Source: Gammaproteobacteria bacterium (GTDB taxonomy: Bacteria > Pseudomonadota > Gammaproteobacteria > SZUA-229). Taken from it: DNA of 64,000 nucleotides. The stretch spans positions 176,887 to 240,886 of the forward strand of contig JAPHSS010000020.1 of the NCBI GenBank assembly GCA_026195255.1, read 5' to 3'. Both the position numbers and the translations under genes were made by a program. Shown in pieces: positions 49,930-54,830 of this stretch (position 1 is its first letter; every line of letters starts with the position of its first letter). Below the pieces are notes generated by a model. It did not search any database. It was not told the origin of the DNA and saw nothing but the letters and a program-made list of their open reading frames with translations.

Positions 49930-50367
49930 TTATACCTGCAACCAAAATGTTACTGGCCCATCATTTAACAAGCTGACCTTCATATCTGCAGCAAATTCTC
50001 CCGACTGCAACTGGCCCATTTCCTTTTCACATTGGTTTGAAACATAATTAAACCAGTACTCAGCCTCTTTCGGTAATGCCGCACTGGAAAAACTCGGCCG
50101 CATACCGTTTTTCGTATCTGCAGCAAGCGTAAACTGTGGCACCAGTAACAACTCACCCTTTATATCTCGCAAACTTAAGTTCATCTTTCCCTCAGCATCT
50201 TCAAAGACGCGGTATCCCAACATTTTATGGATGAGCTTATCTGCTTTTATCTGATCATCCTGCTTTTCAATACCCAGCAATACCAGCAAACCCTGATCAA
50301 TACGCGCAATTTCAGATTCAGACACGGAAACACTCGCATGACTAACTCTTTGAATTAATGCGATCAT
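49930..50367 (-). CDS. dtd: D-aminoacyl-tRNA deacylase
   Basis: [13 protein letters not shown]...[24 protein letters not shown]. Confidence 0.97.
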
Positions 50368-51314
50368 TTTAATATTTCGCTCATTTCTCTCGTTGCCCTT
50401 AATAATTCCTCGGTTATACCCCTCTCAACAACAGCATGCCCCGCATCACTAACAATTGATAATTTAGCCTCAGGCCATGCTTTAGACAGCTCCCATGCCT
50501 GTTCAACCGGGCATATCACATCATAACGACCGTGCACTATATAACCTGGAATATGACGTATTGCCTGAATATCATTAATTAACTGATCTGGTTTTAACCA
50601 ACAATCGTTCATGAAATAATGACATTCAATCCGCGCAATACTCAATGCCGAGTGTGGATTTGCGAAACTATCTATAACATCTTTGTCTGTTTCCAGTGTT
50701 GCCGTCATGCCTTCCCAGATTGACCAGGCTTTTGCAGCCCGTAATTGCTGCATTTCGTCATCCCCTGTTAACTGTCTGGAATAGGCTTGCACCATATCTC
50801 CACGCTCAGACTCTGGAATTGGCTTAATAAATTTTTCCCAATAATCTGGAAAAAGCCGGCTTGTACCCTGTTGATAAAACCACTGTACATCTTTGTCTCG
50901 CGCCAGAAATACGCCCCTTAGAATGAGACCACTCACACTATCCGGGTGTGTTTGTGCATACAAAAGACCTAATGTAGAGCCCCATGAGCCTCCAAATACA
51001 ACCCATTTATCAATTTTCAAATGTCGGCGAATAGTTTCTATATCTGACACCAGATCCCAGCTAGTATTATTTTCCAGACAGGCATGAGGCGTGGATTTAC
51101 CACAACCACGCTGATCAAATAAAATGATTCGATAAATATCAGGATCAAAGTATCTGCGATGAAAAGGCGCACAACCGGCACCCGGCCCCCCATGTAGAAA
51201 CAACACGGGTAAACCTGCAGGGTTACCACACTCCTCGATGTACAGAGTATGCAGGTCATCCACCTGTAAGTGATGGCTAACAAAAGGGCTGATTGAATTA
51301 AATAAGTTACTCAT
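50364..51314 (-). CDS. pip: Prolyl aminopeptidase
   Basis: [33 protein letters not shown]. Confidence 0.97.
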
Positions 51315-51464: not shown

Positions 51465-51482
51465 TGTAGGATTATCCCTACA
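51465..51482 (+). promoter_or_regulatory. GacA/UvrY-type upstream activating sequence
   Basis: TGTAGG-ATTATC-CCTACA, matching the TGTAAG-N6-CTTACA palindromic form. Confidence 0.75.
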
Positions 51483-51536
51483 TTCACAATGTGAGAAACC
51501 TGACACTAAGCACCTGAATCTACTGATAGTAACACT

Positions 51537-51762
51537 TAGGAAGCTTGTCCATAATACAGTCATGGACAAAAGGACATGGCACAAACAAGGACACAGGGAA
51601 TAGTTAGGAAGTAGCACGATAGGAAATACAGGGATAAGGAATCCACGGAAGAACAGAATGTTTTACAGGAGTATATGAAAAAACGGAACTAGCTACAACG
51701 CCATAATCAATCACCAGGGCAGCGGAAGTCCAAAACCCGGCACGGAACGCCGGGTTTTTTAT
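51537..51762 (+). ncRNA. CsrB/RsmY/RsmZ-type CsrA-sequestering small RNA (5' end approximate)
   Basis: No ORF; 14 GGA motifs (AGGA/AAGGA/CAGGGA/ACGGA) in ~226 nt, 8-bp TTGTCCAT/ATGGACAA hairpin, intrinsic terminator at the end, GacA-type box upstream. Confidence 0.82.
51734..51760 (+). terminator. Intrinsic terminator of the sRNA
   Basis: AACCCGGC-ACGGAAC-GCCGGGTTTTTT. Confidence 0.92.
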
Positions 51763-51830
51763 TGCCTGTAATAAAGTAAAATAAGCCGTGACCCTAACCC
51801 AGCCTTTGTCAGGTGCTTTTAGCCCTTAAC

Positions 51831-52544
51831 TCACACACTGGATAATAATGTATCTCTCGCTTTATTGATTTGCTGAGCCAGGTAATCGGAGCCGCCCCTG
51901 TCCGGATGCAGTTTTTGCATTAAGCGTTTGTGGGCAGTATTAATTTCTTTTTTATTTGCCGTTTCAGATACACCTAAAATATCTCTGGCCTGCTTGTCGC
52001 TCATTTCAGAGTCTGTCATTGGTTCACGATATGACTCAGAGCCGCCTTTAGCCCACTCAGGATATTTACGATCAAGATAAGCTATCAATAACGAGGCAGA
52101 TTCGGCATCTTCCTGTTTGCACTGATCAAGTAGCAACATAATCTGTTCAAGACTCATCGCCTGTAACTTTTGTCCCTGAAACTCACCTTCTAACACCTCA
52201 CCCTGCAACTCACCACTTAACACATTTATTTGTAGATGTATAAATCGCGCTGTCATCGTCGACTGATGATTTTGTCGATATCGCTGAAAATAAGGTAGAA
52301 CTGTTGGCCACACACCTATAAAAAACCGCGCCACACGCGGTATTAAAGGTAAAGTTGCACCAACTGCGGCAATCAACCAGTTGAGCCGGCCAGTCAATAC
52401 AAGAACAGCTAACAAACCCACTGATAATATTATTGCCAGGTTTTTTAAAAGCTGCTTCCTTTTAAGCGAGTCCAATCGCCTGAAAAGATATAACACATAA
52501 AAAACAACGAGCAAAATCAGTAAAATTAGGATAATACGTGGCAA
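51831..52544 (-). CDS. Membrane-anchored DnaJ-domain protein
   Basis: Hydrophobic N-terminus; C-terminal J domain ARDILGVSETANKKEINTAHKRLMQKLHPDRGGSDYLAQQINKA. Confidence 0.9.
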   Translation of the reverse strand: MPRIILILLILLVVFYVLYLFRRLDSLKRKQLLKNLAIILSVGLLAVLVLTGRLNWLIAAVGATLPLIPRVARFFIGVWPTVLPYFQRYRQNHQSTMTARFIHLQINVLSGELQGEVLEGEFQGQKLQAMSLEQIMLLLDQCKQEDAESASLLIAYLDRKYPEWAKGGSESYREPMTDSEMSDKQARDILGVSETANKKEINTAHKRLMQKLHPDRGGSDYLAQQINKARDTLLSSV

Positions 52545-52790: not shown

Positions 52791-54830
52791 CTATTTATTA
52801 TTAGAGCGCTTATAATTAATAATTATTGTCACATGGTCTCCCGGATAAATTAAGTCTGGATTTTTTATATTACTTAATTTTGCAAGCTCGGGATAACGCC
52901 ACGGATTATGCACATATCTTTTTGCAATAAACCATAACGTATCGCCCTTTACAACTACGTGAATAAATTTCTTGCTTGATATTACAGAAGAATTTTCTGT
53001 AATACCTGATACGTCCTCTGTTGTTTTATCAGCGATGCTCTTTCTCTCTTTTGATACAAACCCTGACGAACTATCGCCTGCTTCAGCCATTTTAAAAGCT
53101 CTACTTTCTACTGCACTCTGGCTCTCTACCTTGCCTTTACTTTCTATCACCATCTGCCTTTCGATAACTTTTTTACTTTCTGCAATAACCGTATGATCCG
53201 ATATATTTAACTCATCTACTTTTTCTACACCCGTTTCTTCAATAACATATTGATCTACCTTGCTTTCCCCGGACGCAGCGCTCACCTCTTTTTCCGATAC
53301 GCTATTAATTACTCTATTTTCTAAACCCACATCTTTCTGCTCATTGAAATCCGTATCGTAATCATTCACTTCAACACTATTTTCAATTAACTCATTCTCA
53401 CGAACAACATCATTTACGACAATGAGAAGCCCGTCATCATTTTTCGTTATTTCTACCGATTCATTGTCTACAATTATTTGTTGTTTCGCCGAGCTGGCTT
53501 CTACATCACTATTTTTAATAATCGGTTCGATCGCAATGATTTCTTTTTCTGTCACTACAGGTTTCTGTACTTCTGCGTAATTACTGCTTTCTGAATATTC
53601 AAGCGCCTGCGTGATTGCTCTTTTTTTATCTACCTGCAAAACGTTTTCATTATCCAGCACAACGGAGTCGAGAAAATAATAAATTCCGACCACAGCCATT
53701 AAAGCCAACAACCCTAACCAGACAATACCGTTATTATCCTGTGGTATTGGCTGAATCTTAGCGGGCCCGGCCTGCTCGCGATTAATCTCGTTATATTTTT
53801 TTACGTCACTATTTTTTTGTACTATTTCTTTAGCGAACACCTGTGTTTTAATCTTATTGCTTTTAACTGGATTTATATTATTATCTTTATTTTTTTTCGA
53901 AACCTGCATATGGTTTTTATAAAGCTTGTTATCTTCAGCTTTACTACTGTATATAGTGTTAATTTCTGACTTTCTTTCTGATGCCCTATTTGCAGGCTGA
54001 TAGCTGCTTTGTTTTTTACTTTTCTGTTTTTCGGTATCTAATTCATTAACATGTGAACTCTTTATGTTATTTTTTTCACTAACATCATCTGCTTTAACAG
54101 CCTCAGACTTCACTATCCTGGCTTTATTTATATCGCTATTTTCAATTCCTGTTTTATATATTGGAACCACATTTTCTGATGTTTCATTATTATTCTTAAC
54201 ATCACTTATTTCACTGTGTTCCTCTGCAGATATATTTACAGAATTTATATTCTCCGTTGTTATAATATCAACTGTATTCTCTTCAATAATTTGTTTTTTA
54301 GTTCCACCAGGAGAACTCGTTGATATATTTTTATTTTTTTCCTGCTGATTAGCAGCGACTTTTATCATTTCAATATGCTTACGAAGATAACCTGTTGATT
54401 TGAATTTATCCAGCTGTTCAAAGTCAGCATATAATCTGATATTTTTTTCTTCTATTAGCGTTCGACTAAATACATTTCGAGGAATATAAACAGGCACCTG
54501 AGACCAGCCTTTAGTGGGGAAACTTATAACATCTTCTATTTCATCGACCCAGAATCCTGCATGCCCCCCCTCCACCTCAACAATGACTATTTTACCCGGA
54601 TTATTCATATCCGCCTCGTCAACACCAAATCTAACCCTTAGATCAACCAGTCTCACCATACCGTGTATAGATTTAAATACACCGGGCTCCGCCGCACTCG
54701 AACCTGGGGGAACGGTTAGTTTAGGCGGTAGTGTAACGGCCTCTACAGGCATAGTTGGCGAACACACAAACACCGGCCCTACTCTGTAGAGCAATAACGC
54801 ATTTGATTCCTGAATATTATGAACTGACAA
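52791..54830 (-). CDS. CheW-like domain / transmembrane / LysM fusion protein
   Basis: N-terminal CheW-like FKSIHGMVRLVDLRVRFGVDEADMNNPGKIVIVEVEGGHAGFWVDEIEDVISFP; TM GIVWLGLLALMAVVGIYYFL; C-terminal LysM HVVVKGDTLWFIAKRYVHNPWRYPELAKLSNIKNPDLIYPGDHVTI. Confidence 0.85.
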   Translation of the reverse strand: MSVHNIQESNALLLYRVGPVFVCSPTMPVEAVTLPPKLTVPPGSSAAEPGVFKSIHGMVRLVDLRVRFGVDEADMNNPGKIVIVEVEGGHAGFWVDEIEDVISFPTKGWSQVPVYIPRNVFSRTLIEEKNIRLYADFEQLDKFKSTGYLRKHIEMIKVAANQQEKNKNISTSSPGGTKKQIIEENTVDIITTENINSVNISAEEHSEISDVKNNNETSENVVPIYKTGIENSDINKARIVKSEAVKADDVSEKNNIKSSHVNELDTEKQKSKKQSSYQPANRASERKSEINTIYSSKAEDNKLYKNHMQVSKKNKDNNINPVKSNKIKTQVFAKEIVQKNSDVKKYNEINREQAGPAKIQPIPQDNNGIVWLGLLALMAVVGIYYFLDSVVLDNENVLQVDKKRAITQALEYSESSNYAEVQKPVVTEKEIIAIEPIIKNSDVEASSAKQQIIVDNESVEITKNDDGLLIVVNDVVRENELIENSVEVNDYDTDFNEQKDVGLENRVINSVSEKEVSAASGESKVDQYVIEETGVEKVDELNISDHTVIAESKKVIERQMVIESKGKVESQSAVESRAFKMAEAGDSSSGFVSKERKSIADKTTEDVSGITENSSVISSKKFIHVVVKGDTLWFIAKRYVHNPWRYPELAKLSNIKNPDLIYPGDHVTIIINYKRSNNK

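Follow-up and report, generated by a model that had tools for sequence, protein, structure and literature searches.

A GGA-rich intergenic locus in a gammaproteobacterial family very probably encodes a CsrB/RsmZ-type small RNA outside the Rfam families

Introduction

Does the intergenic gap between a pip gene and a DnaJ-domain gene of a gammaproteobacterium encode a small RNA (sRNA) that sequesters CsrA, and does that RNA belong to a known family? The question was raised by a preliminary description of the window (i.e., the whole 64,000-nt stretch of DNA that was analysed), which proposed a CsrB/RsmZ-type sRNA gene under the control of GacA/UvrY. From comparative sequence analysis, we put the probability that the locus is a stand-alone gene of this kind at roughly 0.92. 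The interpretation is supported by the presence of csrA and uvrY in the genome, by accessible GGA motifs, by a shared anatomy in 30 loci, and by covarying helices. The best reading is of a functionally ordinary regulator of a well-known kind that represents a new sequence family, with no Rfam match at cut-offs. A literature search of open-access text found no paper on this sRNA.

The locus and its neighbors

The gap is flanked by two genes:

50364-51314, minus strand: pip, encoding a prolyl-aminopeptidase-like alpha/beta hydrolase; left neighbor
51831-52544, minus strand: gene for a DnaJ-domain protein; right neighbor

The sRNA interval lies on the plus strand and is directed away from pip, toward the 3′ end of the DnaJ-like gene, meaning that its transcript would stand alone; since the DnaJ-like gene is convergent, the region is not the leader of that gene. 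The gap had been described as having no ORF, and it indeed lacks a conserved one, the sole frame being a 59-aa one with a GTG start, called mechanically on the minus strand. Elsewhere in the window, also on the minus strand, are genes for a 679-aa protein in which a CheW domain and a LysM domain are fused, with a long low-complexity linker (52791-54830), and for an HsdM-like methyltransferase of Type I restriction-modification (TIGR00497; 3968-6382).

Genes of the Csr/Gac pathway are found in the organism's own genome. There is one csrA copy with a canonical sequence (E = 1.6e-26), and a UvrY orthologue, 54% identical to E. coli UvrY, whose gene is followed by uvrC, the same adjacency as in E. 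coli. The genome also encodes a BarA-like hybrid kinase that matches BarA residues 1-877 at 36%.

A GacA/UvrY-type box

Upstream of the predicted RNA lies a palindrome:

51465-51482, no strand assigned: GacA/UvrY-type box TGTAGG-ATTATC-CCTACA, 18 bp, identified by its exact sequence and its family-wide recurrence

The box, already noticed in the preliminary description as TGTAGG-N6-CCTACA, is there to the letter. An exact-pattern search located 43 such sites in 36 of 54 family genomes; a reversed control pattern gave no sites in the same 54 genomes. Most of the exact sites have one 350-nt flank with 10-19 GGA, against a background of ~4. The center of the box is ~88 bp upstream of the inferred sRNA start. 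Published UvrY/GacA sites differ from it by one base per half (TGTAGG/CCTACA here): the UvrY consensus is TGTAAGN6CTTACA, with the 18-nt inverted repeat TGTAAGNNNNNNCTTACA as the published site (PMC4682653), and the GacA box of Pseudomonas rsmY, TGTAAGCATTCTCTTACA, is of the TGTAAG-N6-CTTACA class (PMC4353343).

Exact boxes also occur at other places. A second TGTAGG-N6-CCTACA in the same genome (G000:C56:32142-32159; L058:1501-1518) lies between small lipoprotein-like genes. A second CsrB-like RNA at this box was rejected because the flank is not GGA-rich; the site is possibly a direct UvrY target, or a chance occurrence. In two species, an exact box is kept in the gap that separates a gene for a sugar-nucleotide epimerase from a divergent gene for a membrane PAS-domain sensor (L048:1501-1518 and L050:1501-1518). 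A GGA-rich flank is absent from both, and the site is a candidate direct target of GacA/UvrY of a kind other than an sRNA.

A DNA search found the region in 11 of 58 relatives, and 30 loci from at least nine genera can be aligned from box to terminator. The box, a −10 hexamer, a GGA-rich body, and a terminator are conserved together in every one of them. A divergent pip adjoins the box in 10 of these 30 loci, and in some loci the box is only tens of bases from the pip start, as might be expected if the locus were a regulatory DNA element for pip, with the box as its operator, instead of an RNA gene. However, pip was not found adjoining the box at the other 20 loci, which nevertheless have the GGA body and terminator as well as the box and −10, and the GGA-rich, terminated body is directed away from pip. 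We regard a pip operator as very improbable, and favor an sRNA gene.

The predicted promoter

Three elements lie between the box and the predicted RNA:

51550-51555, plus strand: −10 hexamer CATAAT, with CATAAT or CATACT in place in 30 of 30 aligned relatives
51523-51529, plus strand: promoter element CTGATAG, conserved in most of the 30 relatives
51500-51505, plus strand: CTGACA, previously read as a −35, aligning with the CCTACA of relatives with short spacing

The conserved −10 was overlooked in the preliminary description, and the −35 that it suggested, CTGACA, is found only in close relatives and so is not a conserved −35. In genera whose box is 23 bp nearer the promoter, its 3′ half occupies the same alignment position; CTGACA is therefore more likely a relic 3′ half-site of a promoter-proximal box. 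The element CTGAT(A/G)G lies 20-21 nt upstream of the −10 in most of the 30 relatives. This distance is too great for a standard −35, and CTGATAG may instead be a weak −35 or a second activator contact.

Across the 30 loci, the box begins either 84-85 nt (the class in which L010 is counted) or 61-62 nt before the −10, and at no other distance; these two spacings are 23 bp apart. This difference is about two helical turns, and would fit an activator confined to one face of the DNA. A simple promoter/terminator scan of the locus reported no element of either kind.

The position of the −10 places the predicted transcription start near 51562. It also bears on a proposed 8-bp hairpin, TTGTCCAT/ATGGACAA (51547-51570), which straddles the −10. 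Because its left arm is within the promoter, overlapping CATAAT at 51550-51555, this hairpin should not form in the RNA.

Extent and GGA content of the predicted RNA

The predicted transcript and its terminator are as follows:

51562-51760, plus strand: inferred sRNA of ~200 nt, based on a match to covariance model R1 (see below) and on GGA counts and context
51732-51760, plus strand: rho-independent terminator with a GGA in the loop; G+C hairpin and T-run evident in the sequence and in folds

The succession of the box, a −10 at fixed spacing, and then a GGA-rich segment with a rho-independent terminator indicates that the transcript probably runs from ~51562 to 51760, i.e., ~200 nt. The terminator, earlier placed at 51734-51760, is plain, is kept in 30 of 30 relatives, and shows compensatory changes among them. 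The earlier figure of 14 GGA trinucleotides is correct for 51537-51762; 13 of these are in the inferred RNA (51562-51762), compared with 7.0 ± 1.7 in dinucleotide-preserving shuffles, of which 2 in 2000 reach 13. Indeed, this is the GGA-densest 200-nt stretch on the plus strand of the whole 64-kb window, where the mean is 1.55 per 200 nt. GGA counts in the 30 aligned loci range from 10 to 18.

The primary binding site of CsrA/RsmA is A(N)GGA in single-stranded RNA (PMC4066749). In the inferred RNA, 12 of the 13 GGAs are in this context, as are 90% of the 379 GGAs in the 30 relatives; the corresponding share is 47% in the window, and A content/base composition would predict 64%. The predicted fold of 51537-51762, a stretch that includes some promoter sequence, exceeds those of shuffled sequences in stability (z = −4.05). 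The mean unpaired probability of GGAs in the window's RNA is 0.70, versus 0.48 for all Gs, with 11 of the 13 above 0.5, and GGAs exceed other Gs in accessibility in all 30 relatives. The expectation that the GGAs would be exposed in loops was thus borne out in part: they are mostly unpaired, but the hairpin loops of the predicted fold hold only 3 of the 13. The high-affinity sites of CsrB/RsmZ RNAs are usually in hairpin loops.

Covarying long-range helices

Two helices connect distant parts of the RNA:

51576-51580, plus strand: helix P1, 5′ strand ATGGC, pairing with 51700-51704; compensatory variants in relatives
51700-51704, plus strand: helix P1, 3′ strand GCCAT, partner of 51576-51580
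51611-51615, plus strand: helix P2, 5′ strand GTAGC, pairing with 51692-51696; paired in the predicted fold
51692-51696, plus strand: helix P2, 3′ strand GCTAC, partner of 51611-51615

Compensatory variants of P1 in relatives include TTGGC/GCCAA, GAGCC/GGCTC, and GAGTC/GACTC, and P2 varies as ATAGC/GCTAT, TGCAGT/ACTGCA, and GTAACT/AGTTAC. When unaligned segments were paired and partners permuted among nine representatives, one per genus, both helices paired better within than between species, permuted partners matching the observed pairing score in 1.4% (P1) and 0.47% (P2) of 362,880 permutations. In a 16-sequence sub-alignment (A3), 91% of cells pair, and the covariation score is higher than in any of 500 shuffles or any slid control. 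The window's RNA lacks P1 in its minimum-energy fold. Global RNAalifold analysis of all 30 sequences recovered only the terminator, because the MAFFT alignment places P1′ at different positions in different clades. With such short helices and related sequences, covariation appears to lend each helix moderate, though consistent, support.

Distribution of the proposed sRNA family

The 16 sequences behind covariance model R1 come from three other genera, with the organism's own genus left out of training. R1 matches the window at 51562-51763 (E = 5.3e-10), and the locus is its single match in the organism's own genome (E = 1.4e-8). Across the family, R1 matches 44 of 54 genomes (20 of the 22 good-quality ones), including genera without the exact box (G011 and G017). 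The gap is AT-rich, and a box with three mismatches allowed is no more frequent in the window than chance would give, which would suit an origin of the whole pattern as chance purine-rich intergenic DNA adjoining a terminator. This explanation, which we give next to no credence, is refuted by the comparative data, i.e., the constant spacing at 30 loci, the exact box, and the breadth of the R1 matches. An sRNA gene accounts for the locus far better than chance composition.

Three genomes (G065, G066, and G068) have two R1 matches each, which suggests duplicated CsrB/CsrC-like copies in one genus. In a class-wide search of 369 genomes, run with stricter filters, only one match outside the family, in G139, looks real, having the box, 9 GGA, ATCACC, and a terminator; the sRNA sequence family thus seems to be largely lineage-bound, within the reach of those filters. 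Matches in G341 and G353, also outside the family, lack both the exact box and the GGA density and were rejected.

Relation to known CsrA-sequestering RNAs

By Rfam cut-offs, the sRNA is not a member of the CsrB, CsrC, RsmY, or RsmZ families. None of the CsrB, CsrC, RsmX, RsmY, and RsmZ models matches the window at its curated gathering score, the only score of this kind being 10.4 bits for RsmY, below its gathering score of 57. Weak matches to the rnk leader, CC0196, AgrB, and sroD score better than RsmY; they involve mainly the terminator end and were discarded. Among 20 relatives, Rfam searches with permissive E-values listed no CsrB, CsrC, or Rsm family up to E = 3. The testable features of the functional kind are present and the Rfam thresholds are not reached; we therefore have high confidence, as far as sequence features allow, that the RNA works like CsrB/RsmZ while standing outside the Rfam families.

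E. coli CsrB (RF00018) is similar in having a UvrY-type palindrome upstream, many GGAs, a rho-independent terminator, and cognate csrA and barA/uvrY genes. GGA density is also alike, at 6.5 per 100 nt here and 6.0 in CsrB, and the same treatment gives GGA accessibilities of 0.80 versus 0.47 for all Gs in CsrB, compared with 0.70 versus 0.48 here. CsrB differs in its length (369 nt), in having 22 GGAs, 9 of them in predicted hairpin loops, and in showing no Rfam-level sequence or structure match to the sRNA described here. Its UvrY site is ~182 bp upstream (PMC4682653).

The Pseudomonas RsmX/RsmY/RsmZ RNAs (RF00195, RF00166, and relatives) are nearer in size and likewise have a GacA box upstream and multiple A(N)GGA motifs. 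They differ in box class (TGTAAG/CTTACA, rather than TGTAGG/CCTACA half-sites) and in GGA number, with 6-10 in P. brassicacearum (PMC7911923) versus 13 here. InvenireSRNA predicts CsrA/RsmA-regulating sRNAs from GGA density and machine learning (PMC5568370). Its candidates resemble the present locus in being GGA-rich and intergenic and in the logic of their detection; here, by contrast, the evidence is drawn from comparison and includes a promoter and covarying helices. We found no passage in that source on the lineage studied here.

A conserved AUCACC motif

One further element is shared by the relatives:

51709-51716, plus strand: conserved motif AATCACCA, which in relatives lies 48-56 nt before the 3′ end

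In the form AATCACC(A/T)A, this is among the best-conserved parts outside the helices and terminator, and its letters are those of the 3′ tail of 16S rRNA. ATCACC also occurs in L086, from another family. This conservation and recurrence could indicate an sRNA that depends on UvrY/GacA and works chiefly through base-pairing of AUCACC, with CsrA binding mostly stabilizing the sRNA. Against this, the predicted accessibility of AUCACC varies from 0.01 to 0.98, and the retention of 10-18 mostly A(N)GGA sites amid drifting surroundings is best explained by CsrA titration; we consider a mainly base-pairing sRNA decidedly unlikely. A bifunctional RNA, combining CsrA titration with pairing of AAUCACC to Shine-Dalgarno-like GGUGAU, or with nuclease recruitment, is a doubtful prospect. 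If true, it would couple the release of CsrA with either the direct control of selected mRNAs or turnover of the sRNA itself. We favor CsrA titration as the function of the RNA.

Probable mechanism and implications

When BarA/UvrY (GacS/GacA) signalling is on, the sRNA would soak up the global regulator CsrA. The phosphorylated UvrY/GacA orthologue would bind TGTAGG-N6-CCTACA and activate transcription from the CATAAT promoter. In the resulting RNA of ~200 nt, two nested long-range helices and the terminator would hold the structure and leave on display about a dozen mostly single-stranded A(N)GGA sites, to which several CsrA dimers may bind. CsrA would then be drawn off mRNA leaders, and its control would presumably be relieved or removed.

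The understanding of the Csr/Gac system is unchanged by this sRNA. Rather, the locus would extend the sRNA arm of Gac/Csr to a family of gammaproteobacteria where 44 of the 54 sampled genomes are matched by the model and no Rfam family detects the RNA. The alignment and two-helix scaffold provide a covariance model that is usable for annotation.
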